From Opitutia bacterium (GTDB lineage Bacteria > Verrucomicrobiota > Verrucomicrobiia > Opitutales > Coraliomargaritaceae), in assembly GCA_029248665.1 (NCBI GenBank), contig JAQWIW010000034.1:1-64000 (forward strand): a stretch of DNA of 64,000 nt, read 5' to 3'. Positions 4,856 to 25,403 of this stretch are shown one piece after another; positions within the stretch are counted from its first letter, which is position 1; every line of letters starts with the position of its first letter. Under the pieces are notes generated by a model that saw nothing but the letters and a program-made list of their open reading frames with translations, was not told the DNA's origin and did not search any database. The position numbers and the translations under genes were made by a program.

Positions 4856-5731
4856 CTATTCGCTCAAAGTCGCTTTTAAGAATAAGCTATTTTCAGAGGC
4901 TTCAACTGTTTCAGTTTGAAGTAATTCCCATGTGTTCAAATCAGAGCTTGAATAAATATTAAGTGTCTTAGTTGACGGTGCGGTTAAAGCATACTCTTGC
5001 CCATAAACAAGCATGTTTTGTCCTCCCATGTACCCATGGTACAGGCAAATCAATGAAGCACTTCCAAAATTACCCGATACATAAACCGTGATATCTCCAT
5101 AGTAAAAATCTTTACCATTGGCATCGACTAATTTTTTGTCCACATCACCGATGTAACTTATATTAGATGTATTTGAGAGAGCCATCGGGTGAGAACTAGA
5201 AATATTGGTAAAAGTATAGGTGCCGATGCCCATGCCGTATTCACTGACGTATTCTGTATTACCATTAAGCGTATATTTATTTCCGTTGGAGCTGACAATG
5301 GATACTGGGGTCTGAAATGAGCTGATCTGTTCAGGGTTCGTTGCATTGGCTAAATTAAAACTGCCATTCATACCCCCGTGAATATTACATATATAAGTGA
5401 AGGTATAGGTGGAATAATCTGTATTTGCATCTAAAGTAAATGATTGGCTATCACCTGTAGTTAGCTGGTTCACTAAATTGGTGCTAAGCCCATTGCTATC
5501 CGTAAGATACATCTTAAAGGGATGACCACTAGTATTTAAGCCAATAAAGGTATAAGCCTCACCTGCAACTAAAGTATCTGAGCCAGAATTAACAAAATCA
5601 AAAGGCGTTGTTTTGTCTTCATCTAGATAGAAACTATAATATGGAGAGGCAAAACCGATAGTTTCGACATAAATAGTCGTAGCGGATAAAAGAATTTGAG
5701 CAATAAAGAATAATGGGAGTAATTTGTACAT
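4856..5731 (-). CDS. Secreted tandem cupredoxin-like protein
   Basis: The 291-residue product has a signal peptide (about 1-17) and two successive domains that each end in a C-x-x-H-x-x-M motif, the pattern of a type 1 copper site. In the first, candidate ligands are H70 (SGHPF), C115, H118 and M121 (CNIHGGM). In the second they are H181 (SSHPM), C229, H232 and M235 (CLYHGYM). A short C-terminal segment (about 250-291) with NIYSSSDLNTWELL resembles C-terminal beta modules of other secreted proteins in this phylum. Cupredoxins carry single electrons, so this protein could be the partner of the convergent di-haem protein. That pairing is inferred from position only. Confidence 0.75.
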   Translation of the reverse strand: MYKLLPLFFIAQILLSATTIYVETIGFASPYYSFYLDEDKTTPFDFVNSGSDTLVAGEAYTFIGLNTSGHPFKMYLTDSNGLSTNLVNQLTTGDSQSFTLDANTDYSTYTFTYICNIHGGMNGSFNLANATNPEQISSFQTPVSIVSSNGNKYTLNGNTEYVSEYGMGIGTYTFTNISSSHPMALSNTSNISYIGDVDKKLVDANGKDFYYGDITVYVSGNFGSASLICLYHGYMGGQNMLVYGQEYALTAPSTKTLNIYSSSDLNTWELLQTETVEASENSLFLKATLSE

Positions 5732-7227: not shown

Positions 7228-10200
7228 CTATTTCAAAAACCTAGCGGATGGTTGAGATACGTAAATAGCAAAAACATTCGAAGTACGAGTCATTAGTGAC
7301 TGAGAAATAGACTTAGGCAAAATATCACCAGCAATCTTCTCGGAAGTGCCATCTAAGAATTCTACGCGAATTTCTGCTAGTTCAGCATCGCTGAGTGCAT
7401 AAATCACAGGTATTTGTGTAATCGTAAATAACAATGCATTTACAGGAACGGTAATCATGCGTTTTGATTTATCTGGATAAATACAAGTCGCCTCTTGTGG
7501 CTCTTTACCGAGTTCTTCTTTTCGCAATAAACGAGGTTTAAACTCTATCGTTTCATTATTGAATTGAACCCCTAATTCTCCAAAACGGCATATAACGCCT
7601 TCTTTCACCATACCGGTTAAACCTGGCTGTTGAGCTCCAGAAAACGATGGCGTATGCGAATAAGCATCTGCAGTAAATGCTCCATATTCAGAAGCTTTTT
7701 TCCTAAATCCTAAGCCTTCTTGCACATCATAATAGGATTCAACAAGCGCTTCGAAATCCTCATTTTGACCTTCCTCAAGAGCAATTTCTTGAACGGATAA
7801 CATTAACTTGGATACCATATGCCAATAAATACTACCCAGTCCTTCGTATGCGAACATAGACCCACTTCGCCCTGTAAATGCTTTATGATTAAAGGTTGCC
7901 TCATAAAGCTCCAGAATAGCTTTCTCATCTTCAACAATCAATGCTTCTAGAGACTTATCTTTAGCCAACTGGTCAATGACTTCCTTCAATTCAAAACGAT
8001 TTCTAATAGATGAATTAAATCGGAAGCAGTCATCGGGTGAAGCTTCCATAATGCGTCTGTCATTTTGTTCAATCATGTGTGCTAGAGCTGGAACAGCTTT
8101 TGCTGCCTCAATATTCACTTTATTGTAGTCTAAAAATGCAGGTAATCGCTTGTCTGCATAAAGAATGTAACTTTTTCTATTTTCACAATATAGGTCACTG
8201 TTTCTAAGAGATTCTAATAATGCTTTAGCTTCTTTTGCTGAAAGTGCCTTAGCACTTAATACGGCCACCTGACCTTCAAGCATCGGCCCTAAGTGTTCAA
8301 TAGAAGCAAGTTTCTCATTAACATCTAAATGTAAAATATTATAGGCGTTATACAAACCATCTGATCTCAAGTTAGCACGAGTCGCTTCCTTAAGATGATT
8401 TTGAACATTGTGGATAAATGTTTTAAGGTCTTTTACTTGGATGCTTTCTTTCTCACCAAAAGCACCTTGATAAACATTTTTACGGTATCGCTCCCCTGCT
8501 TTACCTAGTTTCTCAACTACTTGATAACGAATATGGCTATCTTTATTAACTGCTTGAGGATCTTCGGCAAAGACTTTGGAAAGATCATCCATCAAAGATT
8601 TTAAAGAAGCAAAACACTGTAAATCTTGATCTTCCTCTATCAAAGAATCAAAGAATTCTAAATAACGTAAAATATAATAGGTTGTGACCATGGAAGTGCC
8701 AAAGCCAGCTAATGCATTATTAGCATCATTCCACTCGGGTCTTTGTGTATTCATCCAAATACCACCATTAGGAATATAATTACTCAGTTTGACTAAAAGT
8801 GGAATTAGTAATTTTTCAAAAAGATTGGCTCGAACCATTTGAGCATCTGCATCATGCACTAATTTTCCATCTGCTCCTATTAATTCAAAGCGTTTTGAGA
8901 TTTCTTCATTTCGTTTCTCATTAAAATAAATGGAATGATTTGGATTCACTTCTAAAAAAGAGAAATCTTTGATCTCATAAGGTACATCCGCATAGACAAA
9001 TAAATTTTCATTCATCAATGCATTGAGTGACTTTGGTTTTAGCGACTCGGTAAATTCGAGTAACTTAAGTAAATAGATAATTTGATGATCGCCCCAATAG
9101 CCAATTGAAGCCCATGGATCAGTTGGATCAGGCTCTTCCCATTCGATACCATTATCGGTAATTCGATAAGGGTTGTAGCCATCTGACGTAGTAGCATTTA
9201 AAAACTTATGGATAAAGGCATCATTGTAATATGGAAAACTCCAAGCAAGTGCTTCCCAATTTTGGAAAATATCTCTCCAATTTCCTTGGAATCCAACAAT
9301 AGGATTACCTCCTTCGTCTTTTGTTTTTATATTGAAACGATTCCATGGACGACTTGGATCACCATGGCGGCGACTGAAAACTAAAGGTAAATATTCGTTA
9401 CAAATACGCTGTAAATCAGGACTCCCATTTGCAGATGCTGCCACTAATTCGTTGTAATTGAATTCTTCTGGTAATGCATCAATAATCGCTAAATCAGCCG
9501 CGTTCAATTTCGAGTTATGTTTTACCAAATGAGGTTTTAAAAGGCTTTTTGAAATAAGATAATTATCAGAAAATACGCCACCACGCATTATATTAAATAA
9601 AACATTTGCTCTATGATAGGTAGATACAATTTCCTCAGAACATACCTGCAATCCATCAGATGCTTGAATCAATTCCTCGAGAGCATTGCGCCCTTTTGCA
9701 ATATCTTCAGTTACTGATTCCCATAAAGCATCTTTGTCTTTAAGTGCAATTGCCAAAGTGGCAACTTCACTTTGTGTTTTATCAATATCTACAACAACTG
9801 ACCAAGATTTTGTTTCTTTGGAGCCTAATTGAAATGAACCTGCATTGTAAAAACAGCCTCTAAGTCCGCGAGAAAAATGTGTGCTTTCAAAACTAGGATT
9901 ATCGAGAAATGCTTCTACATCTGCTTCTTGGATTAAAATTGATGATTCATCCCAGCCATGTGACCAAAGTACCGTTGCCTTCAGGCATTCTAATGGAATC
10001 GCCTCATCGACTAGACTAGCAACCATGCGATGAACCAACATCTGCTTGGAGCTTTCCAATTCACTAACCTTATAAGCATCGGTTAAGCAACTGTAGGCCA
10101 AATGCGTACGATCATCTACTCCTGAAGCTAAGAAATCGGATAATCCATCGACTAAACTTATCTCTATACTTCCTGAACCTAAATTGACTAATTTCGATCT

Positions 10201-10659
10201 ACGAATGAATCCATATTTTTCGGAAGTAGACCAAGTATAAGAAAAAGTGAGATTTAAATCGTTATTAATTTCTTCAAAAATCAAAGTATCACCATTAATA
10301 CTCTTATAAATCTTACGGCTAATCGAAAATACTCGCTCACTGGAAGACTTAAATGGCTCCCATACTTTATCCGCAACTTTAACGATGGTTTGTGGTCCAG
10401 TGCAGTTGGAATTGTTGATAATTTTATCAACTGTATAATACGGGAAAAGTGCGTGATCCGGAGATCCTCTACCTGCACTTAAGGCTCCATTTGTAGCGGT
10501 AAAAAACCAATGATCTTGTGCACTAATCATTGACACAAAAAATGTAGGAATTGCCTCTAAAGCATTGATACAAATAAATCGCTCACCCTCAATATCTTGG
10601 AAATTATAATCCATGTTTGCTTGCGATTTGATGTTATGAGATTCTGTCTGTGTAGTCAT
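7228..10659 (-). CDS. Large glycoside phosphorylase, GH94/GH149-like (probable beta-1,3-glucan phosphorylase)
   Basis: The 1143-residue protein has no signal peptide, so it should be cytoplasmic. Early residues (DHWFFTATNGALSAGRGSPD) look like the N-terminal beta-sandwich of clan GH-Q phosphorylases. A central (alpha/alpha) barrel follows, with the segment PEWNDANNALAG, where D645 lines up with the catalytic acid in the GDWND motif of cellobiose-type phosphorylases. The length is near that of GH149 beta-1,3-oligoglucan phosphorylases (about 1100 residues) and longer than GH94 enzymes. It would split imported beta-1,3-oligosaccharides with phosphate to yield glucose-1-phosphate and save ATP. 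The neighbouring GH16, GH17 and symporter genes support this. GH161 or GH94 assignment remains possible. Confidence 0.65.
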   Translation of the reverse strand: MTTQTESHNIKSQANMDYNFQDIEGERFICINALEAIPTFFVSMISAQDHWFFTATNGALSAGRGSPDHALFPYYTVDKIINNSNCTGPQTIVKVADKVWEPFKSSSERVFSISRKIYKSINGDTLIFEEINNDLNLTFSYTWSTSEKYGFIRRSKLVNLGSGSIEISLVDGLSDFLASGVDDRTHLAYSCLTDAYKVSELESSKQMLVHRMVASLVDEAIPLECLKATVLWSHGWDESSILIQEADVEAFLDNPSFESTHFSRGLRGCFYNAGSFQLGSKETKSWSVVVDIDKTQSEVATLAIALKDKDALWESVTEDIAKGRNALEELIQASDGLQVCSEEIVSTYHRANVLFNIMRGGVFSDNYLISKSLLKPHLVKHNSKLNAADLAIIDALPEEFNYNELVAASANGSPDLQRICNEYLPLVFSRRHGDPSRPWNRFNIKTKDEGGNPIVGFQGNWRDIFQNWEALAWSFPYYNDAFIHKFLNATTSDGYNPYRITDNGIEWEEPDPTDPWASIGYWGDHQIIYLLKLLEFTESLKPKSLNALMNENLFVYADVPYEIKDFSFLEVNPNHSIYFNEKRNEEISKRFELIGADGKLVHDADAQMVRANLFEKLLIPLLVKLSNYIPNGGIWMNTQRPEWNDANNALAGFGTSMVTTYYILRYLEFFDSLIEEDQDLQCFASLKSLMDDLSKVFAEDPQAVNKDSHIRYQVVEKLGKAGERYRKNVYQGAFGEKESIQVKDLKTFIHNVQNHLKEATRANLRSDGLYNAYNILHLDVNEKLASIEHLGPMLEGQVAVLSAKALSAKEAKALLESLRNSDLYCENRKSYILYADKRLPAFLDYNKVNIEAAKAVPALAHMIEQNDRRIMEASPDDCFRFNSSIRNRFELKEVIDQLAKDKSLEALIVEDEKAILELYEATFNHKAFTGRSGSMFAYEGLGSIYWHMVSKLMLSVQEIALEEGQNEDFEALVESYYDVQEGLGFRKKASEYGAFTADAYSHTPSFSGAQQPGLTGMVKEGVICRFGELGVQFNNETIEFKPRLLRKEELGKEPQEATCIYPDKSKRMITVPVNALLFTITQIPVIYALSDAELAEIRVEFLDGTSEKIAGDILPKSISQSLMTRTSNVFAIYVSQPSARFLK

Positions 10660-10683: not shown

Positions 10684-11946
10684 CTAGTGTACGTAAAAAG
10701 GAAAATTAGCAGTTGCTGCTCCTTGATTATCATCCTCAACATATACAAAGAGTCGATAAGGACCTTTTTTTCTAGGTGCCTTAAATTTAACCTCCGAACC
10801 TTTGTTTTCTAAAATCAAACGTGGATAGGATTTAGGCGTGCGCTCAAAATCACCCCCCACACTTTTAGTCTTACTTTCTTCCATAATCACCCATCGATAC
10901 TTTAAAGTATTATTTTCATGATCAATTGTGCTAATTGAAGCCGTGTGAATCGAGTTTCTTAAAATTTTGTTTAGCTTAGCGGAAGATTCTATAGAATGAA
11001 TTTCTGGCACACGATTCAAAGGATAGTGCCCATTCCAACTATAAGCCATGACATCAACAGCTTCCAAGTGAGACCCATTTTTTAAAAACATGCCAAACCA
11101 AGTTGAAGTTGTCTCTTGCTTACTATCCCAATAAAAAGGAAATGTCCCTAAGCAATAGAGTGGTGATTCATTCTTTGCTGAATTGAAGGCCGTTTGATAA
11201 CGCTTTGCTTTTTCGTGGCTAGTTTCTTCAATGGCAATACCCCAATCACTCTTATCTTTAACTTCCCAAGGTCCCATCGGGCCAAACTCAGTAATCATAT
11301 ACGGTTTCTCCCAACCATATTTCAAAAGTAATCCACCTACTTCTGGAGCAAATCCATAAGCGTTAACACCCAAAATATCAATCGAAGGATAATAGCGCTG
11401 AATATGGTTAATTTTGTCAGCGTCAAAACCAGCTACTGCACTCATTACAGGATGCTCTGAATCCAAAGATTTAACAATCTTGGCTAAAGTCTCCATTTCA
11501 CCCCAGATTGTTTCTAACATATCATCAGGAACATGTAATTCAACTTCATTACCCAGTCCCCAAGCAAGTAATGCCGGATGATCTTTAAATTTCTTAACGA
11601 TAGATTTTACTTTTTTTCTTTGCTTAAGAATAAATCGCTTATCGTTATAATCATAATCATGACGCATGTGCTGCACCCATATTCCCGCAACTACCTTCAA
11701 TCCTAAGCGATGTGCGTTATCTAATGTTTTTTTATCAATGGACCATGTGCGGATAGTATTACCACCAAATTTTTTTAAGGCATCTAGGTGATCTTCTCCA
11801 GCTACCCCTTTTACCTCATACGCCAATCCATCCACTGAAAAATGATAACCCGCTGAGGAATCATAATTAATTACTGTTTGAGAATTTAATAAATTAAAAT
11901 TGCACGAAACGAGTAAGATAGAAAAGTATAAATTAAAACGTAACAT
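10684..11946 (-). CDS. Exported GH2/GH158-like TIM-barrel glycosidase
   Basis: The frame is open up to an ATG at 12039, but the ATG at 11946 is preferred: it places a signal sequence (MLRFNLYFSILLVSC) right at the N-terminus, with LVSC fitting a lipobox, so the protein may be a lipoprotein. The mature part is a TIM barrel. Counting from the upstream ATG, the acid/base candidate is E165 (GLGNEVELH) and the nucleophile candidate is E251 (MITEFGPMG), the retaining-enzyme pattern of clan GH-A. An Ig-like C-terminal domain follows the barrel, as in GH158 endo-beta-1,3-glucanases. It is the first gene of the operon with the phosphorylase and symporter. The family (GH2, GH5 or GH158) cannot be settled by eye. 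Confidence 0.75.
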   Translation of the reverse strand: MLRFNLYFSILLVSCNFNLLNSQTVINYDSSAGYHFSVDGLAYEVKGVAGEDHLDALKKFGGNTIRTWSIDKKTLDNAHRLGLKVVAGIWVQHMRHDYDYNDKRFILKQRKKVKSIVKKFKDHPALLAWGLGNEVELHVPDDMLETIWGEMETLAKIVKSLDSEHPVMSAVAGFDADKINHIQRYYPSIDILGVNAYGFAPEVGGLLLKYGWEKPYMITEFGPMGPWEVKDKSDWGIAIEETSHEKAKRYQTAFNSAKNESPLYCLGTFPFYWDSKQETTSTWFGMFLKNGSHLEAVDVMAYSWNGHYPLNRVPEIHSIESSAKLNKILRNSIHTASISTIDHENNTLKYRWVIMEESKTKSVGGDFERTPKSYPRLILENKGSEVKFKAPRKKGPYRLFVYVEDDNQGAATANFPFYVH

Positions 11947-12157
11947 AAATGACAAAATTGCACCTATTTGCATTATATTTGTCAACTCTCTAAAACTGAA
12001 TAAAGAATAGAAACATATAGATATTTTGTTTGGATACATAATTTAAAAGTTTAAAAATATAAATCAGGTCATTTGCAACAAGTGTCCCTCAATTTTATGA
12101 AAATTATTTTTTTCTTGTCACAAATAATGTCTTGATAACATGTGCATAAAAGTGCAA

Positions 12158-12415: not shown

Positions 12416-13462
12416 ATGAAACAAGTCAAACAACAAGAAATTGCCAAAAAGTTGAACCTCTCTAGAGCAACTGTATCTCGATGTTTCACAAATCACCCTG
12501 GAATCAACCCAGAAACACGCGCATTAGTCTTTGAAACAGCAATTGAAATAGGATATCATCACCTATCGAATAGAACCTCTAAAAATAAAATTGAGCAAAA
12601 AACATTTGGGGTACTTATTTGCACATCTGAGGAAGAATACTATCGAACAGATTATGAAAACTCAGGTAAGAGTATCTTTAAGGGCATATCTGAACTCAGC
12701 CAAATTAAAAAAATTCAATTATCCATTCATTTTCTAGATCCTTCCAATACTCTAATATCATCAAAAAATTTTAAAGATCTCATCAATACCTACGGAAAAT
12801 TATGGGACGGTATTTTAATGATTCACCCATTGCCGAAAGAAATCGTTGATTATCTAGTTCTAAGATATCCTTGTGTTTCTACAGTCGAACAACGTTCCAG
12901 TATTAATTTGAATTGTGTCGATGTCGATCACTATCAAGGCATTAACTATCTGATCAATTACTTATATGGATATGGTCATGAGAGAATAGCCTTTTATTCT
13001 ATTGAGTATAAATTTTTACAAAGTTGGGTGCTTCGTCGAGCTGGGGCTTATTTTGAAAAAATGACTAAATTAGGCTTTAAGATAAAAGAAACAGATATGA
13101 TTAATGTTCATCCCAATAGCATGGGATCATTAGAGGAAAGTTTTGATCAAGCAGCTAAAGCTGTTAAAGACGGAGTGAGTGCCTTTGTTTGTGCTGCAGA
13201 TCATCAAGCTTACGAATTAGTCAAGGGTCTACAAAAAAGAGGCATTCGCGTTCCTGAAGATGTCTCAGTCTGTGGCTTTGATGGTGTTGAAACTCCTGAT
13301 AATGCACTGCAAATTTGCACCGTAAAAATCCCTAATTATGATATCGGCTATTTCGCAGCTGAGCGTCTATTTGAGCATTCGAAAAAACGCTTCAGCTCGA
13401 CACACCATACCCTATTAGGATGTAGCATTATTAAAGGTGATACAGTAAATATTAATCGATAA
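12416..13462 (+). CDS. LacI-family transcriptional regulator
   Basis: This 348-residue protein begins with a LacI-type helix-turn-helix (QQEIAKKLNLSRATVSRCF, residues 6-24) and a hinge helix, then a periplasmic-binding-protein-like sensor domain from about residue 60. The late segment VPEDVSVCGFDGVETPD is the typical LacI/GalR signature near the C-terminal cleft. It probably binds a sugar or sugar phosphate and represses or activates the divergent glycosidase-phosphorylase-symporter operon and perhaps the GH16/GH17 genes downstream. The ATG lacks a Shine-Dalgarno sequence. The class is secure; the effector and targets are inferred from position. Confidence 0.92.
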   Translation: MKQVKQQEIAKKLNLSRATVSRCFTNHPGINPETRALVFETAIEIGYHHLSNRTSKNKIEQKTFGVLICTSEEEYYRTDYENSGKSIFKGISELSQIKKIQLSIHFLDPSNTLISSKNFKDLINTYGKLWDGILMIHPLPKEIVDYLVLRYPCVSTVEQRSSINLNCVDVDHYQGINYLINYLYGYGHERIAFYSIEYKFLQSWVLRRAGAYFEKMTKLGFKIKETDMINVHPNSMGSLEESFDQAAKAVKDGVSAFVCAADHQAYELVKGLQKRGIRVPEDVSVCGFDGVETPDNALQICTVKIPNYDIGYFAAERLFEHSKKRFSSTHHTLLGCSIIKGDTVNINR

Positions 13463-13615: not shown

Positions 13616-16600
13616 ATGAATTCCCACTTTTCTGCTAAAAAGAAAGCACATAAAGATCTCCCTTTTTGTACAAAAAATAGGACATCTGGATTTGCTTTAA
13701 TCGTAGCTCTCGGGCTCATGTCATTTGTCCTCTTAATTATGCTGGGACTCAGTACTTTAGTTCAAGTAAACAGCAAGCTCTCATCATCGGAAAAAGATCT
13801 CACATCAGCCAAACAGAATGCACTTTTTGCCCTGAATTTAGCTATAGGAGATTTGCAAAATGAAATGGGGCCCGATCAAAGAATTTCGGCCACTGCTTCC
13901 ATTCTTGATACATTTCCTGAAACAGAAGCGATTGATGGGGTGAATAATCCATATTGGACAGGAGCTTGGAATAGTAGCAATCCCTTAGAAGGTAATTTAG
14001 TAGATCAAGTTATTTCGAGTAAACGCTCTGCTTCAGATGGCAAACCTTCTCATTTCCGTCGTTGGCTTATCTCCACACCTACCAATGACGATAGCATGTC
14101 CCCTGAAGACAAGATCCTGTTTGCTCGAAATTTCAGTAAAGACTCAGAGGGTGCAATTATCATGGTCGGTTCAGGGACTCTAGGCGAAGAGGCAGCCACA
14201 GAACATGGGGTATTTGCCCCACGCCAGATCATAAGCAAGGAGCAAGATAAAGAAAGTGGCTATGCTTATTGGATTGGTGATGAAGGCGTAAAATCAAGAG
14301 TTGCTGGTGCAGCCTCAGAAAAAATAGAGACAAATTTAGAACAAATATTGGATGTCAATAATGCAGGCAGTCCTCGACTGAACGCGATTGAAGGCTTTGA
14401 AAATGCAGAAGATATATCCGATCAATCTGATAAAATACTCACTCTCGGAACTGCCCAGTTCGCCTTCAACGAGGCACTTGAAGGAAATATTGATGCTTTT
14501 AAAAGTAAATTTCACATACTTTCTGCCTTTAGCAGAGGTTTGATGGTCGATGTGAAAAATGGAGGCGTTCGCAAAGATCTAAGCTTACTCTTCGCCACGG
14601 AATCACTCCCTATCGAATATGACGAGGTGCCCATTTTTACTTATGATGCATCCGAGGGACCCTATTGGAATTATGCCCAGCGTTATCATAATATTTATAA
14701 GAAAATACGCAACGATGGGGGTCGGAATTATCTACAAACCTCTGATTTTTGGGATGATGCTAAAGTTGATATTCCTGACTCCGAAACAAAATATACCGAT
14801 TTCCCCATTCCTGTCTTAGCCCGTATGCAAGTCATCTTTTCACTGCACAAACAGCGTAATACATACAACGGGAGGTATAATGAAGCACTGAATATTGAAG
14901 ACGACACTGGAAACCCTGGCACTCCTAGTGACCCTGGCACTCCTGGTGGACCCGGCGGACCCGGCGGACCTGGTGGACCCGGCGGACCTGGAGATTCCGA
15001 TGATACTGATACCAGCACGAACAGAGAAACCACGTTTAGTGACTATGAGCCTTTTGGTGGTGCCACAATCTCTGAAGACGGTAATTTTGAAATTCCAGAC
15101 ACTGCAGAAGAATCAGCTGGCTTTAGAATAGCAGATACTTCTGCTTATCCCTTTTCATTTTTTAATGATGGCAGTTTAAAATTTAATGCTTCTGTGCCTG
15201 ATGGTGATAGCGTAAAAGTTTATTTTACATTTGGACAATCGACTGATGATAATCCAGATAATGATTACAGGACAGATACCATTACTTTGAGTGGAAATTT
15301 GCCTAGTGAATTCACCATAGACATTCCCAAACAACAAGGCTTTGATGAATACACAACCTTCTCCATTTATATTGAGGAAATAAATACCCCATTTATTTTA
15401 GGTCAAACCACTATCATAGATGATAAGGAATCGAGTTCTGGAGGCATCATAATTGATGATAGGGCAAAGTCACAAAGTAATGATCAAGAAATTCTTCAGT
15501 TAATGATGACTCCAATATTCTACCTTTGGAACCCCTATAATATTGAAATTGTCATGGACGCTCATCCGGAAAATCACGGATCTTATGAATATTTTTATGC
15601 CCCACCTGAAATTGAATTCACTTACGATGGCAGAAATTGGATTAATTTAAGAAATTTTGGATCTTTTCAATTTGGTCGAGGTGACGAATTGCTAGCAATG
15701 TGGTCTTCAAATAATCGTTTCAACAGAGCAACTGACGGAGCCCCTTTTGAGATTCCTGCAGGAGAATTTAGATTTAATCGAGTTATTCCTACGATGATAA
15801 ATCAAACTCCTGATTATGAGAAAATGCAATTTTTTGATATTTACAGCTATTCCTATGAAGGGGTGTTTGGAGATCCAGATTTTCCTGATGCTTTGCCTGC
15901 TGGATATACACCAGCAGTAGCCAATTGGGTACAGTCGACTAATCTCATTGATGGCTATGCAGATGGAGCTTTTACAGGATTGTTTTCTCCTATTATAAAT
16001 CATGAAGGAGAAAATAAAACGGATCAAAGAGTTAAAAAAGTAGTGACGAACATCGTCCGCTCAAATGGCGACGATATAAGTGACATTATCAACTATGGTC
16101 CTTATCTATTTAACATACGGCTTAAAAATCAGTTCTTTACTAGTCGCCTATCATTAGGAGCTGGATGGAACAGCTTTAATCCAAACTACGACGTCAATCA
16201 AGTAGGAAGCCACTTACTGCCCAAAAGAATGATTGGAGCACTCAATATTGACTCGGGTGAAGCGATCGATAATAGATCCTACCATCAATCTACTTTACCG
16301 TCTGCGATTACGGTAGGAGACGAACAGCTTTTCAATGTTTACAATCCAACCCAAAATACTTGGGGAGATATACGATATGCACCAAAAATAGCGCTGAATG
16401 TCGATATTCGTGGTTTTACCGAAGAAAACACACCAGGCAAACATGCCTTTTTTGTCGACCCTGCTAATACCTATTATTATGATGATGAATCTGACGATAC
16501 TTCGCTAGCCCTTTCCCCTTTCCGTATTTACGTAAAAGAAATCCCAGGAAGTGATATCATCCAAACGCATCCTACCAATGATGCACAAATAGGCTTCGAA

Positions 16601-18004
16601 ACAATTGCAGGTGATACAGTTTATAAATGTGTTTCCAAAGAATTACCCTTAATTCCCCTGCTATCTTTAACCCAACTAGACCATGCACCACTAGGTCGTG
16701 ATAGTGACCACTTTGCTTATTATTCAGGAAGAAGAAATCCATTTTCTATCTGGCAATACGAGACAGCCTCCTTAAAAGATCCACGCATCATGTTTCGAGG
16801 TAAAGAAGAGCGTCCAATGGCACCCACATTTAATATGGCCGTTGGTAATAGTTGGGCCCACCCTACCATACCACTCAACGATATCATCGATCCCGATGAT
16901 ACTTATAAAGGATATGCTACTGATCGATCCTTCCTTTTAAATGAAACCCTCTTTGATTCCTATTTCTTTAGCGGCTTAGCCTTTCCGAGTGGGCCTTTCC
17001 GCAATGATATGCCTGAGATGGGAGACCTGCTCGGCGATTGGGTTTATCAAAAAAGTAAACTCCCTAACTCAAATTATTTATTTAAGGGACCGAGTAGCAT
17101 GTCTTTCAAGGAAGCTATCAATGTTCTTTCGTTCAGTAATGTAGACCCGGTTGATCTATTTGATAAAATTGCAAATTTCATTGAGATTGAAGGTGCATTT
17201 AATATAAATTCAACCTCAGTTGATAGCTGGGTTGCTCAACTCTCCTCATTGAGAGGGAAATCCGTTCTCTACGATAACTCAGATTATGGAGATTATAATA
17301 TTGATAGCACAAATATCGAAAACACGCCTATCTTAAGCCAAGCTATACCCGCCGAAAAATCACTTGAAAATACAGGAGGCACCATAGATAGCATTATTCA
17401 AAATTCATGGTCTCATTATCGCTCACTTGAAGATTCACAAATTGTGAAACTTGCAGAAGAAATCGTGAAGCAAATCAAAGCAAGAGGGCCTTTCTTATCC
17501 TTGTCTCAATTCTTTAATCGAGAAATCTCTGAACGAAATCCTTATAATATCAAAGGGGCTATTCAAACAGCTATCGATGAATCTTATATAAATTTAGAGT
17601 CACCGAAAAAGAATGTCGCTTCTGCCCTAAGTGGACGCTTTGATGGAAATCCAGGAAGCCAGCAGTGGATAGGCAATACAGATTTTGATGCACCTGAAGC
17701 TTTTGAAGGTGATGCGAATGAAGGTTTATCTGGATATATCACTCAAGCATCCTTAATGCGCCCCTTAACCCCAATCCTTTCGGCAAGATCCGATACTTTT
17801 GTCATACGTGCTTATGGAGACGCCCAACAAAATGGGGAAATCAAATCTAAAGTATGGTGTGAAGCTGTTGTCCAAAGAAGAATTGACCTCGTCGATGAAG
17901 AAAATTCCCTTTTAGATTCCAGCTTTGACAGAAATGATGCCAATGCTTTCAACCGAAAGTTTGAAGTGGTTAGTTTCAGATGGCTGAATGCAGATGAAAT
18001 TTAG
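13616..18004 (+). CDS. Giant pilin-like surface protein with collagen-like linker and shared beta module
   Basis: This 1462-residue protein has a prepilin-like N-terminus: a basic leader ending in G25, then a hydrophobic helix starting FALIVALGLM and continuing amphipathically (about 26-85, with QNALFALNLAIGDLQ). This matches the PilX-like N-termini of very large verrucomicrobial proteins (Verru_Chthon cassette type). Residues about 430-465 form a collagen-like Gly-Pro-Gly repeat, followed by the shared beta module (about 472-605). The C-terminal end (SARSDTFVIRAYG and WCEAVVQRR) is typical of the same family. It probably sits in the envelope or a type IV pilus/type II secretion-like fibre; insertion of the module suggests a glycan-binding role. 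It is followed 17 bases later by a small exported protein gene. Confidence 0.75.
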   Translation: MNSHFSAKKKAHKDLPFCTKNRTSGFALIVALGLMSFVLLIMLGLSTLVQVNSKLSSSEKDLTSAKQNALFALNLAIGDLQNEMGPDQRISATASILDTFPETEAIDGVNNPYWTGAWNSSNPLEGNLVDQVISSKRSASDGKPSHFRRWLISTPTNDDSMSPEDKILFARNFSKDSEGAIIMVGSGTLGEEAATEHGVFAPRQIISKEQDKESGYAYWIGDEGVKSRVAGAASEKIETNLEQILDVNNAGSPRLNAIEGFENAEDISDQSDKILTLGTAQFAFNEALEGNIDAFKSKFHILSAFSRGLMVDVKNGGVRKDLSLLFATESLPIEYDEVPIFTYDASEGPYWNYAQRYHNIYKKIRNDGGRNYLQTSDFWDDAKVDIPDSETKYTDFPIPVLARMQVIFSLHKQRNTYNGRYNEALNIEDDTGNPGTPSDPGTPGGPGGPGGPGGPGGPGDSDDTDTSTNRETTFSDYEPFGGATISEDGNFEIPDTAEESAGFRIADTSAYPFSFFNDGSLKFNASVPDGDSVKVYFTFGQSTDDNPDNDYRTDTITLSGNLPSEFTIDIPKQQGFDEYTTFSIYIEEINTPFILGQTTIIDDKESSSGGIIIDDRAKSQSNDQEILQLMMTPIFYLWNPYNIEIVMDAHPENHGSYEYFYAPPEIEFTYDGRNWINLRNFGSFQFGRGDELLAMWSSNNRFNRATDGAPFEIPAGEFRFNRVIPTMINQTPDYEKMQFFDIYSYSYEGVFGDPDFPDALPAGYTPAVANWVQSTNLIDGYADGAFTGLFSPIINHEGENKTDQRVKKVVTNIVRSNGDDISDIINYGPYLFNIRLKNQFFTSRLSLGAGWNSFNPNYDVNQVGSHLLPKRMIGALNIDSGEAIDNRSYHQSTLPSAITVGDEQLFNVYNPTQNTWGDIRYAPKIALNVDIRGFTEENTPGKHAFFVDPANTYYYDDESDDTSLALSPFRIYVKEIPGSDIIQTHPTNDAQIGFETIAGDTVYKCVSKELPLIPLLSLTQLDHAPLGRDSDHFAYYSGRRNPFSIWQYETASLKDPRIMFRGKEERPMAPTFNMAVGNSWAHPTIPLNDIIDPDDTYKGYATDRSFLLNETLFDSYFFSGLAFPSGPFRNDMPEMGDLLGDWVYQKSKLPNSNYLFKGPSSMSFKEAINVLSFSNVDPVDLFDKIANFIEIEGAFNINSTSVDSWVAQLSSLRGKSVLYDNSDYGDYNIDSTNIENTPILSQAIPAEKSLENTGGTIDSIIQNSWSHYRSLEDSQIVKLAEEIVKQIKARGPFLSLSQFFNREISERNPYNIKGAIQTAIDESYINLESPKKNVASALSGRFDGNPGSQQWIGNTDFDAPEAFEGDANEGLSGYITQASLMRPLTPILSARSDTFVIRAYGDAQQNGEIKSKVWCEAVVQRRIDLVDEENSLLDSSFDRNDANAFNRKFEVVSFRWLNADEI
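14943..14991 (+). repeat. In-frame 9-base tandem repeat coding Gly-Gly-Pro
   Basis: Units of the type GGTGGACCC/GGCGGACCC/GGCGGACCT repeat about five times inside the 1462-residue gene and encode a collagen-like GGP tract. Both strands stay open through it, giving a false antisense frame. Such repeats can change copy number by slippage, which would vary linker length. Confidence 0.85.
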
Positions 18005-18021
18005 GCGACTGCTTATTACAT

Positions 18022-18684
18022 ATGAAAAAATGTGCCCTTATAAGTTTGATCTTACCTCTAGTATGTTTCCTAAGCTGTCATTTATCCGCTAAAGAATTTA
18101 AATTAATCTCACTCGATGATTTTGGAGAGATTGAGCAATTAAAATTTCAAAATCAAAAGGGTCCACAAACATTAAGTATCCAGAAGTATTTTCCTAATAA
18201 AAGCTTCACTGTCCCCAAAGGCGATGTGATTCATTTCTATGGAGTCGATCCAGTCACAGGGATTTCTGCTAAAATACCTTTATTAAGGATCTCATTCGAC
18301 AAGCAAGAAGGTGATACCATTGTTTTGCTTCAAAAAGATGAAAATAATTCAGCGCAGTTAAATTATGAATTTTTAAAGAATAATCCTGAGGCTTTTCCGC
18401 TTCTTTCCACAAATATCCTGAATTTATCAAACAAGCCAGTCATCGCCAAACTGGGTGATCAACTAGTTAAAATATTACCTAAAAACAAAAAACTAGTCCC
18501 CTTGCCTCAAAACAAAAATGGCACTTTTAATGAAAAAGTTGTTTTTGCCGCTCAAAAAGAAAATCAGAGCATCGATTATTTTTACTCCTCTTTTTGGAGG
18601 GTTATCGCTGGGCATAAAACACTCTGCATTATAGAACCCGATGAAGCAGCTGATACGCATAAGCTAGTTGAGTTATTGCTTTAG
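18022..18684 (+). CDS. Exported protein of unknown function, partner of the pilin-like protein
   Basis: I do not recognise this 220-residue protein. It starts with a signal peptide (MKKCALISLILPLVCFLSC followed by HLSAKEF; cleavage after LSA is likely). The rest is mixed alpha/beta, lysine-rich, with no enzyme motif that I can see. It begins 17 bases after the stop of the giant pilin-like gene on the same strand, so the two are probably co-transcribed. Small exported partners of this type often follow large pilin-like genes in this phylum, but the role is not known. Confidence 0.6.
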   Translation: MKKCALISLILPLVCFLSCHLSAKEFKLISLDDFGEIEQLKFQNQKGPQTLSIQKYFPNKSFTVPKGDVIHFYGVDPVTGISAKIPLLRISFDKQEGDTIVLLQKDENNSAQLNYEFLKNNPEAFPLLSTNILNLSNKPVIAKLGDQLVKILPKNKKLVPLPQNKNGTFNEKVVFAAQKENQSIDYFYSSFWRVIAGHKTLCIIEPDEAADTHKLVELLL

Positions 18685-18965: not shown

Positions 18966-21062
18966 ATGCATTCTACAAAATCGACTTCAGTTTTAAGAAA
19001 TATTCTTCTAAGTAAAAATGTAATTCTTTTTGCAATCACTGCATTAGCTTCCCCTAGTTTCCTAAACGGGCTCAGTAAATCATTTGTTGCATCTGATTGG
19101 GGTGAATTTGCAGACAGTGGTGCTACCGTAAATGGTGGCGTATTCGAATTTCCTACAAGTGCGGCATCTTGGGCTGGATTTTGGAATTCAAAAGATTCAT
19201 TATTTCCATTCACCTTTGCATCGGGTGGACAATTAACCTTCACAGCATCTGTTCCAGATGGAGGCACTGCGGATGTAAACTTCAAATTTGAAAGGCTTTC
19301 TTTCAATGCAAATGGCAATGGTGCAGCAGACACTCTTCCTAGCTATAGAACTGAATCTATAACTATAAGCGGCGCCAACGCTACTCAGTATACGGTCGAA
19401 ATACCCTCACAAGGGAGTAGTACTTTTTCATCCTTCTTATTTTATATCGAAGATCGTGACGTGCCTGTTCAATTAAGCACTGTAGTGGTAGAGGATAGTG
19501 TAAGCACAAACAATGAGAATCCCGGATACTATAGCCCTAGTAACGTAACAAGCTATAATGGAAATTTCATCTTTGGGGAAAGTGTTGATACTGAAAACAG
19601 CATCCTATGGAAACAAGAAGTAGATCCAATTATTCACAATAATGAAATTCAAAATTATAAAGGCGGCTATGTCGGTCTCGATGATAATGATAATTTAGTC
19701 CTAAAACTAGAAAGAACTGGATCGAATACTTACTACTCTTCTAGAATTAATACTACGATAAATGATGGCATAAAAGTAGGATCCGGGGAAAAACTTACGG
19801 TTGAGTTTGAAGCACAATTACCGATGGCTAAAGATAGTAACGGAAATTATGTACCAGACGTACCTCTTTGGCCTGCATTATGGCTAATGGGCAATGATCA
19901 ATTAAATAATAATTGGGTAGGCTGGCCGTATTGTGCCGAAATTGACGTTATGGAATGGTCTCCAACCAAGGCCCCAAATTATCAAACTCAAGCCAATGTA
20001 GCCTATCATTGGAATGGGCAAGACGCAGGAAGCTATACGCATTGGTACGACTCTCAATATTACACCGATTCTGAAATCCATACCAAATTTCACAAATGGC
20101 GGGTGGATATCTACCGCTATGATGATGGGATTAATACGAATAAGATAGAAATCTTCATGGATGATGCTTACATTTCCGGGTCAAGATTCGAGGAAAGTAC
20201 AAGCTCCTACAATCAAGAATTCTGGTATCCAACAACAAGTAAAAACCCACAAACATTTGGTTCAGGAGATAAAGAATATTTTCTCATTATGAATATTGCA
20301 TTAGGAGGAGACTACCCTCAAACAAGCAGCGTCCCTTCAGATTTTCAATATGCAGAAATGGTTGTTAAAAGTGTAAACTATGAAATTACATCACTGACAA
20401 AGTATACCTTAGATTTGAATTATGATTTGGCTAAAATTGCGGTAACCAAGACTCCAGATAGTGCAGATTACAGTAGTGGTGAATCAGTATTGGTTGAAGC
20501 GAGTGCTAACCCTGGATATGTCTTAGGCAATTCTGATTGGATCACTAATACAATTATAATGGATGCAAATAAGTCATTCAGTATCTCTGCTTATCCAGAC
20601 TTTAGTGATAGCGATGGAGATGGTTTAAATAATTACAATGAAGCTGTAATTTATAATTCAAATTTGAACAATCCTGACTCTGATAACGATAACTCAAGTG
20701 ATTACTTTGAATCTATTGCGGGTACATCTTTAACTGATGCTAGTGACTATTTTTATCTGCAAGGCTCTATGGATACTTCTGGTCTCTATAATATAGAATA
20801 TAATACCAAATCGAATCGCGAATATTCACTAAGCGTTAGTGATGATTTAACAAACTGGTATAATTGGAAAACAGAAAGTGGTGATGGCAGCACTTATTCA
20901 AATATTTTTGATCCAACCCTTGAGAGTATCAACGGTTTAAATAATAATTCCCAAAACTTCTTTTTTAAAGTTAATATAGAAGAAGAACAAGATTCATCCG
21001 GACCAGGTGAACCAAGTGGACCAGGTGAACCAAGTGGACCAGGTGGACCAGGTGGACCATAG
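18966..21062 (+). CDS. Secreted GH16 endo-beta-1,3-glucanase (laminarinase) with shared beta module
   Basis: This 698-residue protein has an N-terminal signal segment (about 1-40), the shared beta module (about 43-178) and a GH16 catalytic domain (about 185-475). The catalytic core is EIDVME, with nucleophile E325, D327 and acid/base E330, preceded by WPALWLMG, a laminarinase-like substrate strand. A domain with calcium-type repeats (DSDGDGLNNYNE and PDSDNDNSSDYFE, about 545-580) follows. The protein ends in a collagen-like tail, GPGEPSGPGEPSGPGGPGGP, right at the C-terminus. It should cut internal bonds of beta-1,3-glucans outside the cell. The GH17 gene starts 14 bases downstream, so the pair is an operon. 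Confidence 0.9.
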   Translation: MHSTKSTSVLRNILLSKNVILFAITALASPSFLNGLSKSFVASDWGEFADSGATVNGGVFEFPTSAASWAGFWNSKDSLFPFTFASGGQLTFTASVPDGGTADVNFKFERLSFNANGNGAADTLPSYRTESITISGANATQYTVEIPSQGSSTFSSFLFYIEDRDVPVQLSTVVVEDSVSTNNENPGYYSPSNVTSYNGNFIFGESVDTENSILWKQEVDPIIHNNEIQNYKGGYVGLDDNDNLVLKLERTGSNTYYSSRINTTINDGIKVGSGEKLTVEFEAQLPMAKDSNGNYVPDVPLWPALWLMGNDQLNNNWVGWPYCAEIDVMEWSPTKAPNYQTQANVAYHWNGQDAGSYTHWYDSQYYTDSEIHTKFHKWRVDIYRYDDGINTNKIEIFMDDAYISGSRFEESTSSYNQEFWYPTTSKNPQTFGSGDKEYFLIMNIALGGDYPQTSSVPSDFQYAEMVVKSVNYEITSLTKYTLDLNYDLAKIAVTKTPDSADYSSGESVLVEASANPGYVLGNSDWITNTIIMDANKSFSISAYPDFSDSDGDGLNNYNEAVIYNSNLNNPDSDNDNSSDYFESIAGTSLTDASDYFYLQGSMDTSGLYNIEYNTKSNREYSLSVSDDLTNWYNWKTESGDGSTYSNIFDPTLESINGLNNNSQNFFFKVNIEEEQDSSGPGEPSGPGEPSGPGGPGGP
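21000..21060 (+). repeat. C-terminal collagen-like coding repeat of the GH16 enzyme
   Basis: Units of GGACCAGGTGAACCAAGT repeat in frame and run to the stop codon, encoding Gly-Pro-Gly-Glu/Gly-Pro-Ser repeats. The nature of the repeat is the same as in the di-haem and pilin-like proteins, but the position (extreme C-terminus) differs. Confidence 0.85.
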
Positions 21063-21076
21063 CCTCACTTACACCT

Positions 21077-22066
21077 ATGATTCGTTTAACTTTATTGTCT
21101 TTTTGCTTTTCTATTTTGTGTGCATCATTGCCTCAATTACCTACTGATCTCATTAATGGAGAACATTGGGCGCTTTCTTACTCAGGCTTCAGGATAGGAC
21201 AACATCCAGATCGAGGTGATGGGGCTAAGAATCCTAGTGAAGCTCAAATTATTGAGGATCTAAACATATTACTTGATGAAGGCTTTAAGCTTGTTCGGAT
21301 GTATGATTGCGACACCAATACCCAAATGACACTTGAAGTTATAAGAAAACATAACTTTCCCATGAAAGTGTTATTAGGCATTTGGTTGGATGCAGAAATA
21401 AGTAATCATGATGGATGTGGCTGGCTGACAGAGCCAATACCCGAATCGCAACTAGCAGAAAACCGAGTTAACAATCAATTAGAGGTTAAAACTGCAATAG
21501 AATTAGCGAATAAGTATAAGGATATCGTTGTTGCGATCAATGTCGGCAATGAAGCACTTGTCAGTTGGAATGATCACATGATGTCTGAAGAACGTGTCAT
21601 TCAATTTGTGCGAGAGGTAAAAGCTAATATTGAACAGCCTGTGACTGTTGCAGAAACCCATTATTGGTGGAGAGATTATGGAGCCAATCTGGCTAAAGAA
21701 CTTGATTTTCTAGGGGTGCACATCTATCCCCTATGGGAAGGTGAAGGTATTGAAAAAGGAATGTCTTTTACAATCGAAGGTATTGAGAAAGTGGCTAAAG
21801 CACTACCAAATGCAAAAATTGCGGTGCTGGAAGCTGGTTGGGCTACTGTAGCCAATGAATTTGGAGAAAGAGCGAATGAAGCCAATCAAAAGCTATATTA
21901 TAATGAATTTAAACAGTGGTCAAAAGCCAACAATGTCACTGTATTCTTCTTCGAAGCGTTTGATGAGCCTTGGAAAGGAAATGATGATGCCCCAAAGGCT
22001 GCAGAGAAAAATTGGGGTGTGTTCTTTGAGGACAGAACGCCAAAATTGGTCTTACAAAAAGATTAG
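21077..22066 (+). CDS. Exported GH17 beta-1,3-glucanase
   Basis: This 329-residue protein has a signal peptide (about 1-17) and a single TIM barrel. The GH17 catalytic pattern is present: acid/base E159 in NVGNEALVSW and nucleophile E252 in VLEAGWAT. GH17 enzymes hydrolyse beta-1,3-glucan chains, or transfer glucan segments. It lies 14 bases after the GH16 gene, so both are probably made together to reduce laminarin to short oligosaccharides. The length is normal for a bacterial single-domain GH17. No shared module or collagen-like linker is attached. Confidence 0.88.
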   Translation: MIRLTLLSFCFSILCASLPQLPTDLINGEHWALSYSGFRIGQHPDRGDGAKNPSEAQIIEDLNILLDEGFKLVRMYDCDTNTQMTLEVIRKHNFPMKVLLGIWLDAEISNHDGCGWLTEPIPESQLAENRVNNQLEVKTAIELANKYKDIVVAINVGNEALVSWNDHMMSEERVIQFVREVKANIEQPVTVAETHYWWRDYGANLAKELDFLGVHIYPLWEGEGIEKGMSFTIEGIEKVAKALPNAKIAVLEAGWATVANEFGERANEANQKLYYNEFKQWSKANNVTVFFFEAFDEPWKGNDDAPKAAEKNWGVFFEDRTPKLVLQKD

Positions 22067-22481: not shown

Positions 22482-25403
22482 TTACTCGTTAGTAACCGAT
22501 ACTCTAATAAACACTGTATCTGAATCTGTGCCGCTTACAGTAGCAGTCGCAGTAGTAGTGCCTTCAGAGGGGCTATTATCTTCTGCTGCAATAGTTACAG
22601 TAGTACCATCGACTGTATCTCCACTGTTGCTCCAAGTAGTAAGATCCTTAGACCATAGATAGCTGGCGCTGACGTCATCAGACAAATCACTATTCTTAGA
22701 GTGTTGCATACTCACACCATTACTTGTTTTAGCAATACTTGACATGCCTCCTGAGCGGCTACCAGGTAAAGTACCTAAGAAGCTCTCTAATCCATTTGGA
22801 ATACCATCATTATCAGGATCCGCTGAGAATCCAGCATTGGCTCCAGATAAACCATTATCAGATGCCCAATTTTCAAAGGTATTCGCTACAACAGCTTCGG
22901 AAACCGAAATCTGATCAAATGCAATAACGGATTCCGCACCAGATATTAGATAAAGCAATGCAAAAGTAGTACCTACAGGAACTTCAATCGATTGAGTGTA
23001 TTGTACCCATTCGCCATTAGTTGGATTTGCATCCGCATGTATAACTGCACTAGTGTCTGCTGGTACGTAAACCCAAGTTTGTGTATCAGCGACGTAGAAA
23101 GCAAATTGGACTAGACCTAAGTCAGTGCCAGAAATACGATTCATGTAGTAAGAGACATCATATGTTGTACCCGCTTCCATGCCTAATTGATCGATGGTTT
23201 CATAATTGCCTTGATTAGAAGCGATATAAACGCTGTTTCTATCCGTTCCAGCATTTGTCATGACAACTTGGCCAGGGATAGGACCATTGCCTCCGTTTGT
23301 ATTAAAATCGACTCCAGCAACAAATCCCCAATATGCATTGGAACCATTGGTGAAATTACCTTCTTTAATCGAAGTTGTCTCATCATATGTACCCACAAGA
23401 TTGCTGACTTGAATGTTACCCCAATCGGTAGCTGGGTTAGCATTTCTTCCTTCCAATAGAAGTCCTAATTGAGGAATATAATCGCCAGTTGGGATGTCTA
23501 AAGATACAGCAAAATCACCTGCAGCAGACAAAGTTACTTGATCAATGCCTACTGTAACGTAGTTATTGTTAGGATCAGTATATTTGATGAATGCTGTTAC
23601 TGTGTATCTTGGGTCTAAGGTGTAACTGTCAACAGTACCACTGAAGTTCACTGTCTTCCCAAGAATTTCACTCGTATTTTGCGTACCCTCTATTTTTAAG
23701 GTTTGTTCAAGGTAATGAATTCCATCATCAGAGCCTTCTTCGCTCCATGTATCATAAGAAGCAGTATTAGGCATTAAAGTAATAACTCCATTTTCCCAAG
23801 TAGCAGGAAGGTCTGATAATTGACTCCAACTATCTTGACCTGCAAAAGTACCCTTTGTATCACCAGCTTCTAATGTGAACCAAGATACATAAGCGGACCA
23901 TTTGTAAGCAGGGTCATCATCACGGCCTGTACCAACATCCTCATCTGTATCAATTATACCATTCGAAAATGCGGTTTCACCGTTGTATACTGGCGGCAAT
24001 GTTACGGTTGTATCCGCCCAATTAGCCGTAAATGTTAAGGTAGCTTCCTGATCAAATACTAATCCATTTGTTGGAAATTCAGCAACTTGATCATTTGATA
24101 AAGCAAATCCACCCCATGACTGAGAGGTTGATAAAAATGTGTACGTTTTAGTTGCGTCATCTATACTTACTCCACCAAAGCTATTAGAAAATACTAGTGA
24201 GTCTTCTCCGGAACCACCATAAGTAACGCCTCCAACATTTAAAGTAACATCTGTTACTGTAATTGGCTGATCTGCACCTATTGCGTAAAGCAACATATTT
24301 TCAAATGTAGCAGCTGGATCCGAATAGGCTGGGATAGTAATAGAATATGATTGAGGGTCAGTGTTAGTAATTTCAACTGTTTCTGTGTTATGAGTATAAG
24401 CAGCACTACCACCAGATATTTCTTCAAATACAAAGCGGACTCCATTAGATATAACGGTCGCTGCACCTTCGTCATCAAAGACAGTTACATCACCTAATAT
24501 AACGGGGCTATCTCTTTCAATAATATAGAATAAAAAAGATGAGAATGTTTGATCTCCTTGCGCAGGGAGTGCGACTGTGTACTCAGTAGGAGTGCTTCCA
24601 GAGACAATTACCTGTTCAGTTGAGAAATTAGGATTAACGTCTGGATATGGGTTTTTCTCAAATTTAAAGTAAACAGTAGTATCCGAGCCACCTTCTGGTA
24701 CTGATGCGGTAAATGTAATCTGCCCCGCCTCGCTAAACGTGAATGGATAAGCAGAAGCATCATCATTTGCAAATCCAGCATAAGATTGAGCAGCTGCTGG
24801 GAAATTGAAAACTCCTTCTTCATTGCTCGCACCTTCAAAAGCACCCCAAGCAGTGATAGTTGTTTCACCTGAAGCACCAGGCGTTGGAGCATTCGGATCA
24901 ATTACTGGATCATCATAAACAACTTGAATGTCTTGGATCTGAACAGGAGTGTCCGCTTCTGTAATGTAAAAAACAAAATTTGAGAAAGTCTGATCGCCTT
25001 GCGCAGGAAGTGTCGCGGTGTAAGTTTGAATTGTGCTACCAGAAATTGGAATACTAACTTCAAAATTTGGTGTGTTATTTGGATGTGGTGCATTCTCAAA
25101 TACAAATCGCAAGGTTGCGCTTTCTCCACTTTCCACTGCTGCGTTCACAGTAAGTTGACCGTCAGCCGAAAATATAAATGGGAGGTATGCTTCACCGCCA
25201 CCATCATTAGTCGCAGCAAATCCGCCCCAGGATTGATAGCCGCTGGCAGTACTTGACCAATTAAATGTATCACCATCAACAGAAGCGCCACCGAAAGTAC
25301 CGTAGGAAGGAATAGTGATCTCAGCCGCTTGAGCGGTACTGATGGAGAAAAACATCGTTATAAATAAAAATAACGAAGCATAAAGAGAACGTAAATGTTT
25401 CAT
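22482..25403 (-). CDS. Secreted multi-module protein, probable polysaccharide-binding protein
   Basis: This 973-residue protein has a signal peptide (1-26, ending TAQAA). Two full copies of the shared beta module follow (about 28-165 and 182-322), then a second-half copy (about 327-395) and a first-half copy (about 410-470). Two CBM4/9-like beta-sandwich regions lie at about 535-670 and 678-840. A DPDNDGIPNGLE calcium-type motif (about 865) leads to a C-terminal module. No catalytic motif is visible, so it is probably a binding or surface-layer protein. It is monocistronic on the minus strand with its own terminator, and it faces the GH16-GH17 pair. Its ligand is inferred from context. Confidence 0.7.
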   Translation of the reverse strand: MKHLRSLYASLFLFITMFFSISTAQAAEITIPSYGTFGGASVDGDTFNWSSTASGYQSWGGFAATNDGGGEAYLPFIFSADGQLTVNAAVESGESATLRFVFENAPHPNNTPNFEVSIPISGSTIQTYTATLPAQGDQTFSNFVFYITEADTPVQIQDIQVVYDDPVIDPNAPTPGASGETTITAWGAFEGASNEEGVFNFPAAAQSYAGFANDDASAYPFTFSEAGQITFTASVPEGGSDTTVYFKFEKNPYPDVNPNFSTEQVIVSGSTPTEYTVALPAQGDQTFSSFLFYIIERDSPVILGDVTVFDDEGAATVISNGVRFVFEEISGGSAAYTHNTETVEITNTDPQSYSITIPAYSDPAATFENMLLYAIGADQPITVTDVTLNVGGVTYGGSGEDSLVFSNSFGGVSIDDATKTYTFLSTSQSWGGFALSNDQVAEFPTNGLVFDQEATLTFTANWADTTVTLPPVYNGETAFSNGIIDTDEDVGTGRDDDPAYKWSAYVSWFTLEAGDTKGTFAGQDSWSQLSDLPATWENGVITLMPNTASYDTWSEEGSDDGIHYLEQTLKIEGTQNTSEILGKTVNFSGTVDSYTLDPRYTVTAFIKYTDPNNNYVTVGIDQVTLSAAGDFAVSLDIPTGDYIPQLGLLLEGRNANPATDWGNIQVSNLVGTYDETTSIKEGNFTNGSNAYWGFVAGVDFNTNGGNGPIPGQVVMTNAGTDRNSVYIASNQGNYETIDQLGMEAGTTYDVSYYMNRISGTDLGLVQFAFYVADTQTWVYVPADTSAVIHADANPTNGEWVQYTQSIEVPVGTTFALLYLISGAESVIAFDQISVSEAVVANTFENWASDNGLSGANAGFSADPDNDGIPNGLESFLGTLPGSRSGGMSSIAKTSNGVSMQHSKNSDLSDDVSASYLWSKDLTTWSNSGDTVDGTTVTIAAEDNSPSEGTTTATATVSGTDSDTVFIRVSVTNE

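Follow-up and report, generated by a model that had tools for sequence, protein, structure and literature searches.

A giant pilin-like protein and its small exported partner recur in sugar-polymer gene clusters of Verrucomicrobiota and may do the surface-capture job of SusC/SusD

Much of the degradation of algal polysaccharides is due to Verrucomicrobiota. The way in which they hold glycans and take them up is known only in part; one recent answer is the type IV-like pilus for glycan attachment encoded by the MUL2 locus of Akkermansiaceae, which ties verrucomicrobial type 4 filament parts to glycan use (PMC13174399). Moreover, Verruconatronum alginivorum carries an alginate-induced operon with a pulG-like pseudopilin that has 67 homologues in the genome (PMC13274419). 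According to a review, the subunit that caps the tip complex in type 4 filaments is the one without the glutamate at position +5 (Glu5), and pilins have received adhesive domains by grafting (PMC10191384); PilC of S. sanguinis, for instance, is a glycan-binding modular tip pilin (PMC9934059). The tip-capping minor pseudopilin of the type II secretion system (T2SS) is GspK (NF037980; PDB 3CI0, chain K), and Verrucomicrobiota also encode a giant pilin-like protein of about 1300 positions, the Verru_Chthon cassette protein A (TIGR02600). As for the enzymes, GH149, GH17, GH16, GH158, and GH30 characterize the variant-1 beta-glucan loci of bloom-associated Bacteroidota (PMC10877868), and no laminarin PULs were detected in the Verrucomicrobiota MAGs of an earlier study (PMC8857213). 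The gene pair described here travels with individual polysaccharide loci, which makes it a testable candidate for glycan holding or uptake and a marker with which such loci can be found and assigned.

The window is a stretch of 64,000 nucleotides from an Opitutia bacterium whose assembled genome (1.42 Mb, 35 contigs, 97.8% complete) contains a single copy of the giant gene. The original prediction gave positions 13616-18684 for a giant pilin-like protein with a small exported partner; the start at 13616 holds, but the interval consists of two plus-strand ORFs 18 bp apart, namely the giant, which ends at 18004 (1462 aa), and a separate partner gene (18022-18684, 220 aa). The predicted setting is correct, as the pair lies between the gene of a LacI-family regulator (12416-13462, +) and that of a GH16 laminarinase (18966-21062, +). 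The proposed prepilin-type start is likewise borne out by the sequence and by weak N-terminal matches to TIGR02600 and GspK. Specifically, a charged, Gly-terminated leader of 25 residues (13616-13690) is followed by the hydrophobic stretch FALIVALGLMSFVLLIMLGL; prepilin cleavage would fall after G25 (G25|FALIV), leaving valine instead of glutamate at +5. The spine helix that follows (aa 26-83; 13691-13864) is the part with homology to GspK detectable by NCBIfam match and hhalign. The predicted collagen-like (GGP)n linker, GTPSDPGTPGGPGGPGGPGGPGGPG, occupies about aa 432-460 (14909-14995) and precedes a CBM-type beta-sandwich module at aa 466-607 (15011-15436), while the family search and the A1 alignment define a C-terminal region conserved throughout the giant family (aa 1066-1462; 16811-18001). 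The closest named relative by the giant protein is the uncultured Puniceicoccaceae MAG ERR599095_bin.3 (L158, 54% identity). The AlphaFold model of the Cerasicoccus frondis orthologue (pLDDT 78, pTM 0.86) has a helix at residues 2-58 and a disordered loop to which the linker maps. Pfam returned no family for the giant, the partner, or the module, and PDB sequence searches with their profiles gave nothing usable; the antibody light chains matched by the module were discarded as chance.

The giant resembles GspK in its prepilin-type start, the absence of Glu at +5, the homologous spine, and the large body, although it is four times larger, is located in polysaccharide loci rather than in a T2SS operon, and has a dedicated exported partner. 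The NF037980 (GspK) model matches residues 24-91 with E 0.0065 (16 bits versus a cut-off of 130), and TIGR02600 matches residues 25-83 with E 0.0015 (16.5 versus 332.3 bits); across the family, GspK is matched by 23 of 29 giants and TIGR02600, weakly, by 18 of 29. By hhalign, the N-terminus aligns with GspK over 84 columns (E 1.4e-5), while the C-terminal comparison scores 14.6, inside the range of 200 column shuffles (maximum 18.8). Foldseek with the C. frondis orthologue model ranks GspK (3ci0_K) first, but with E 0.31, so that homology to GspK could be shown for the N-terminal 85 residues or so and, by profile comparison and Foldseek, not outside them. The cleavage context is conserved: all 65 giants checked keep the glycine followed by a hydrophobic stretch, with phenylalanine at +1 in 64 and serine in one, and none has Glu at +5. 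Glu5 is present in each of the ten other pilins annotated in the genome and absent from its housekeeping GspK. The likeness to the Verru_Chthon cassette protein A is one of size, lineage, and a match over 59 N-terminal positions; conversely, the score falls far below the cut-off, the cassette B, C, and D genes do not adjoin the giant anywhere in the searched window, and a different partner and glycan genes are found instead. In its detectable features the giant appears GspK-cap-like, and it is assigned neither to GspK nor to Verru_Chthon_A, the cut-off of the latter being widely missed. Searches of the non-subscription literature on Verru_Chthon and on Verrucomicrobia with GspK retrieved no paper on the giant family.

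The filament or secretion machinery that the original prediction presupposed is encoded elsewhere in the genome, which has one prepilin peptidase, two secretins, three T2SSE-type ATPases with one weak further match, ten N_methyl pilins, and a T2SS operon (GspG, H, I, J, K, L, M, and D; L114). This operon includes its own GspK of 360 aa, and the giant is therefore an addition to the system and not its only cap. In the window, no pilin gene is found near the giant, and the locus is without an H, I, or J pilin of its own. A cassette of five small pilins on contig C16 (L115, 5540-9021) weakly resembles Verru_Chthon C and D, GspH, and GspG, with no cassette A gene in it, and might supply the giant with its filament partners.

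The genes around the giant form a clear candidate for a Verrucomicrobiota laminarin PUL, as judged from the predicted enzymes. Upstream, on the minus strand, lie an MFS-type sugar transporter recognized by eye from its sequence (5800-7203), a GH149 1,3-beta-glucan phosphorylase (7228-10659; NF058639, 1383 bits versus a cut-off of 1150), and a GH158 endo-beta-1,3-glucanase (10684-12039; E 2.4e-83 to a solved GH158). Downstream, on the plus strand, are the GH16 beta-1,3-glucanase, with an N-terminal copy of the module (19071-19511) and a GPG-rich C-terminal tail and a GH17 glucanase (21077-22066), followed on the minus strand by an exported protein that carries the module in two full and two partial copies (22482-25403). 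The enzyme families are those of the Bacteroidota variant-1 locus, with GH30 present at the C. frondis locus; the difference is that the order is without SusD, which is absent from all 52 genomes searched (Bacteroides control positive), and that the giant and its partner are found at the locus instead. Five TonB-dependent receptor matches are present in the genome, all on other contigs. The LacI-family regulator may co-regulate the giant with the enzymes; the LacI-type palindromes common to the intergenic regions are AT-rich matches only, of a kind that occurs 44 times in the whole window.

The giant is linked to the laminarin locus by synteny and phylogeny, as the original prediction had supposed. 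The block comprising MFS, GH149, GH158, LacI, giant, and partner is kept in C. frondis (G104; strain NBRC 105381, locus L041/L159) and in four other genomes (G069, G039, G117, and G083), is found without a recognised LacI in a sixth (G138), is present in pieces in two genomes of the same genus (G216 and G243), and is reduced to LacI, giant, and partner in G129. Moreover, in a FastTree phylogeny of 45 giants, those of beta-glucan loci form one clade with a support of 100, and none of 500 shuffles scored as low. The six genomes outside the genus that keep the block and G129 share an extra gene of 160 aa just before the giant, which is missing in the source genus; it encodes a conserved exported protein (L041, 8859-9347, with equivalents in L042-L047) with the pattern SKAWDALGQKNYDLAIDY and no NCBIfam match.

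The partner has a signal-peptide-like N-terminus, and the partner genes form a family of their own (profile A3). Among the giants of the order with a readable downstream side, 35 of 41 have the partner directly downstream and four more have it nearby; in named genomes it stands at most two genes away in 67 of 83 cases. Loci that contributed no partner to the profile are recovered as well (L050, L062, L064, and L095, for example), and two loci (L166 and L167) contain tandem arrays of three to four giant-partner pairs over about 23 kb. The conserved feature is therefore the pair of giant and small partner, not the module. Genomes of a single, putatively Akkermansia-like genus (L240-L246) have one to three giants beside housekeeping genes, without partner or glycan genes, which indicates another role or setting of the family there.

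Beyond the beta-glucan loci, a relative of the giant occurs in 218 of 273 genomes of the order, a liberal count since the query includes the module and the pilin start, and in a sample of the phylum the profile matches at E 1e-20 or better in 53 of 195 genomes. Some genomes yielded 20 to 70 first-look candidates, numbers to be read as upper guides since scoring covered only two or three candidates in each genome. Named carriers include C. frondis, Haloferula, Luteolibacter, many Akkermansiaceae MAGs, and Kiritimatiellaeota bacterium B1221. To characterize the neighbourhoods, the four nearest other genes were taken at each of 29 loci of other giants, chosen by similarity score and not by context, and control genes were drawn from random regions of partly the same genomes. 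Sulfatases make up 15 of 113 neighbours against 3 of 114 control genes (one-sided Fisher p 0.003), a contrast in which genes within one locus are not independent and which is conservative because glycan genes also abound in the control genomes. LacI-type sensor domains number seven against two in the control, and GH78 catalytic domains number four. The idea that a place beside polysaccharide enzymes would be a new use of this protein type is thus not supported, since the wider relatives also adjoin sulfatases and sugar regulators, nearly always with the partner.

The module was predicted to be shared with the GH16 enzyme and to bind glycans. The sharing is well founded: the 142 residues of the giant's copy have 40% identity to the GH16 N-terminus (E 2e-16) and 39% to the protein at 22482-25403 (E 5e-22), values that, judged on the sequences, place the likeness beyond chance. 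The 11-copy profile A2 scores the giant's copy at E 1.5e-54, although this copy is itself a row of the profile, and the independent evidence is hence the pairwise E-values. All six copies detected in the genome are sited either within the beta-glucan region or next to a GH1 gene. In addition to the giant, GH16, and the protein at 22482-25403, the carriers include a DHOR-type di-haem oxidoreductase (PF06537; 1249-4470, +), with an fn3 domain and one module copy (1552-2040), which is an unexpected carrier for a domain of a glycan-binding type. Another is an exported protein of 864 aa on contig C18 (L235, 1-12000), which adjoins a GH1 beta-glucosidase and an SSF-like transporter; farther along, this contig also has a match to a TonB-dependent receptor. 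Strong matches among 246 genomes of the order are confined to four genomes of this genus, with two doubtful matches elsewhere. Only the giants of the source window and G216 carry the module, and not giants regardless of locus; the orthologues in G243, G162, and other families are without it. The insertion point corresponds to the disordered loop of the C. frondis model (pLDDT below 50 at 417-430) and, in the G243 giant, to a glycine-rich linker. Because it is confined to the genus, missing from orthologues, and sited at such a position, the module must have been grafted recently onto a disordered linker of the giant; the idea that giant and module share one origin was rejected, the module being an insertion. 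The proposal that the module defines the link to the polysaccharide is not supported, since orthologues in C. frondis and five other genomes keep the locus without it, the module is limited to this genus, and the giant's copies have lost an aromatic residue.

As for glycan binding, the prediction stands in its fold and weakens at one residue. The module is modelled as a beta-sandwich (pLDDT 86.6, pTM 0.80) whose best PDB fold matches are CBM22, CBM30, CBM11, CBM4, CBM16, and CBM6 (E 8e-5), with TM-scores of about 0.5 that indicate a match at the level of fold and not of family; Pfam and PDB sequence searches assign it to no described CBM family. A conserved aromatic residue, which is a putative sugar contact, is Trp or Tyr in nine of nine other copies and Ser in both giant copies. 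A carbohydrate-binding-type module grafted on a tip pilin recalls PilC of S. sanguinis, and the giant's module has the property by which modular pilins are recognized, as it is not restricted to type 4 filaments and occurs also in GH16 and other exported proteins. The differences are the diderm host, the far larger body, the position of the module in a mid-protein loop, and a glycan binding that is predicted.

Taken together, these data are best explained, with what we consider an even chance of being right, by the giant capping a type 4 filament as the tip subunit dedicated to the beta-glucan locus and handling glucan outside the cell with its partner. The filament would be a T2SS pseudopilus or a type IV pilus. 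Cleavage of the giant by the prepilin peptidase would fall behind G25, the N-terminal helix without Glu5 would set the giant atop a minor-pilin complex built by the shared housekeeping machinery, and the body of roughly 1,100 residues would be pushed outside the outer membrane with the small exported partner, to bind or position glucan beside the secreted GH16 and GH17. In the source genus, a CBM-like module would have been added to a flexible loop of this body. In function, the giant would then correspond to the glycan-binding proteins of the SusD type, which the order lacks. Counting against this reading are the C-terminal homology to GspK that could not be shown, the GspK already present in the T2SS operon, the absence of H, I, and J pilins from the locus, the Akkermansia-like giants without partner or glycan genes, the lost aromatic residue of the giant's module, and the TonB-dependent receptors encoded elsewhere in the genome. 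Some of the same observations would suit a cap that serves secretion instead, recognizing GH16, GH17, and the module proteins and ejecting them through the T2SS without catching polysaccharide: the closest detectable relative of the giant is a T2SS component, the operon is present, the HIJK tip complex contacts secreted effectors (PMC10191384), giants adjoin genes for exported enzymes, and the module that the giant has in common with GH16 could serve for docking. However, most giants and neighbouring enzymes are without the module, whose fold is CBM-like rather than docking-domain-like, and a secretion plug would hardly need a body as large as about 1100 residues, whereas PilY1 gives a precedent for large adhesins at the tip. 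This locus-specific secretion adaptor is hence considered unlikely, though still a serious competitor, and is ranked behind the glucan-handling tip subunit.

A periplasmic location is improbable. The N-terminal helix would in that case be an inner-membrane anchor only, and the body would handle oligosaccharides or enzymes in the periplasm, which would suit a locus without obligatory pilin partners, a pilin fold that is unproven outside the N-terminus (the hhalign score within shuffles and the Foldseek E-value), and a partner that could stay periplasmic given its ordinary signal-peptide-like start; yet an anchor has no need of the prepilin cleavage context kept in 65 giants, and the genome does encode a prepilin peptidase. 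The chance appears slimmer still that the giant is an ordinary pilus adhesin for attachment to cells or particles whose gene is merely located in a glucan locus: PilY1 and modular pilins do serve general adhesion (PMC10191384, PMC9934059) and the giants of Akkermansia-like genomes lie apart from glycan genes, but long-lived synteny and single-clade inheritance with beta-glucan enzymes across families, together with the many paralogues beside sulfatases and sugar regulators, argue otherwise. Compatible with any of these readings of the giant, the module itself could be a protein-protein or structural beta-sandwich of the genus's exported proteins and not bind carbohydrate. This is possible but doubtful: copies on the DHOR protein and on a GSDH-like protein of G216, the lack of a Pfam match, and the serine of both giant copies suggest it, while the predominance of CBMs among the best fold matches and the genomic placement of all six copies speak against it.

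With regard to the wider phylum, the preferred tip-subunit reading may be tentatively extended. Giant and partner recur in Verrucomicrobiota sugar-polymer clusters and may do there the surface-capture job of Bacteroidota SusC/SusD. A more specific proposal, which we regard as rather speculative, is that Verrucomicrobiota have, instead of SusC/SusD, multiplied giant Glu5-less tip pilins, each with an exported partner and one polysaccharide locus, on a shared type 4 filament machine with interchangeable substrate-specific tips. If true, type 4 filament tips would here be used in an unusual way, with one machine and many dedicated giant caps. MUL2 differs in being one conserved pilus-biogenesis locus, whereas the giants are multicopy and attached to individual polysaccharide loci. 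By analogy, the V. alginivorum and Akkermansiaceae reports appear to point in the same direction as the glucan-handling reading, without settling it.

Lastly, two further features of the window are worth recording. The DNA polymerase III alpha subunit (35007-38686, +) appears to be split into two ORFs in different frames (35007-37001 and 37013-38686), and an exported protein encoded at 4856-5731 on the minus strand seems, by eye, to have a duplicated cupredoxin-like domain, with a similar protein start at position 10363 of L235 on contig C18.
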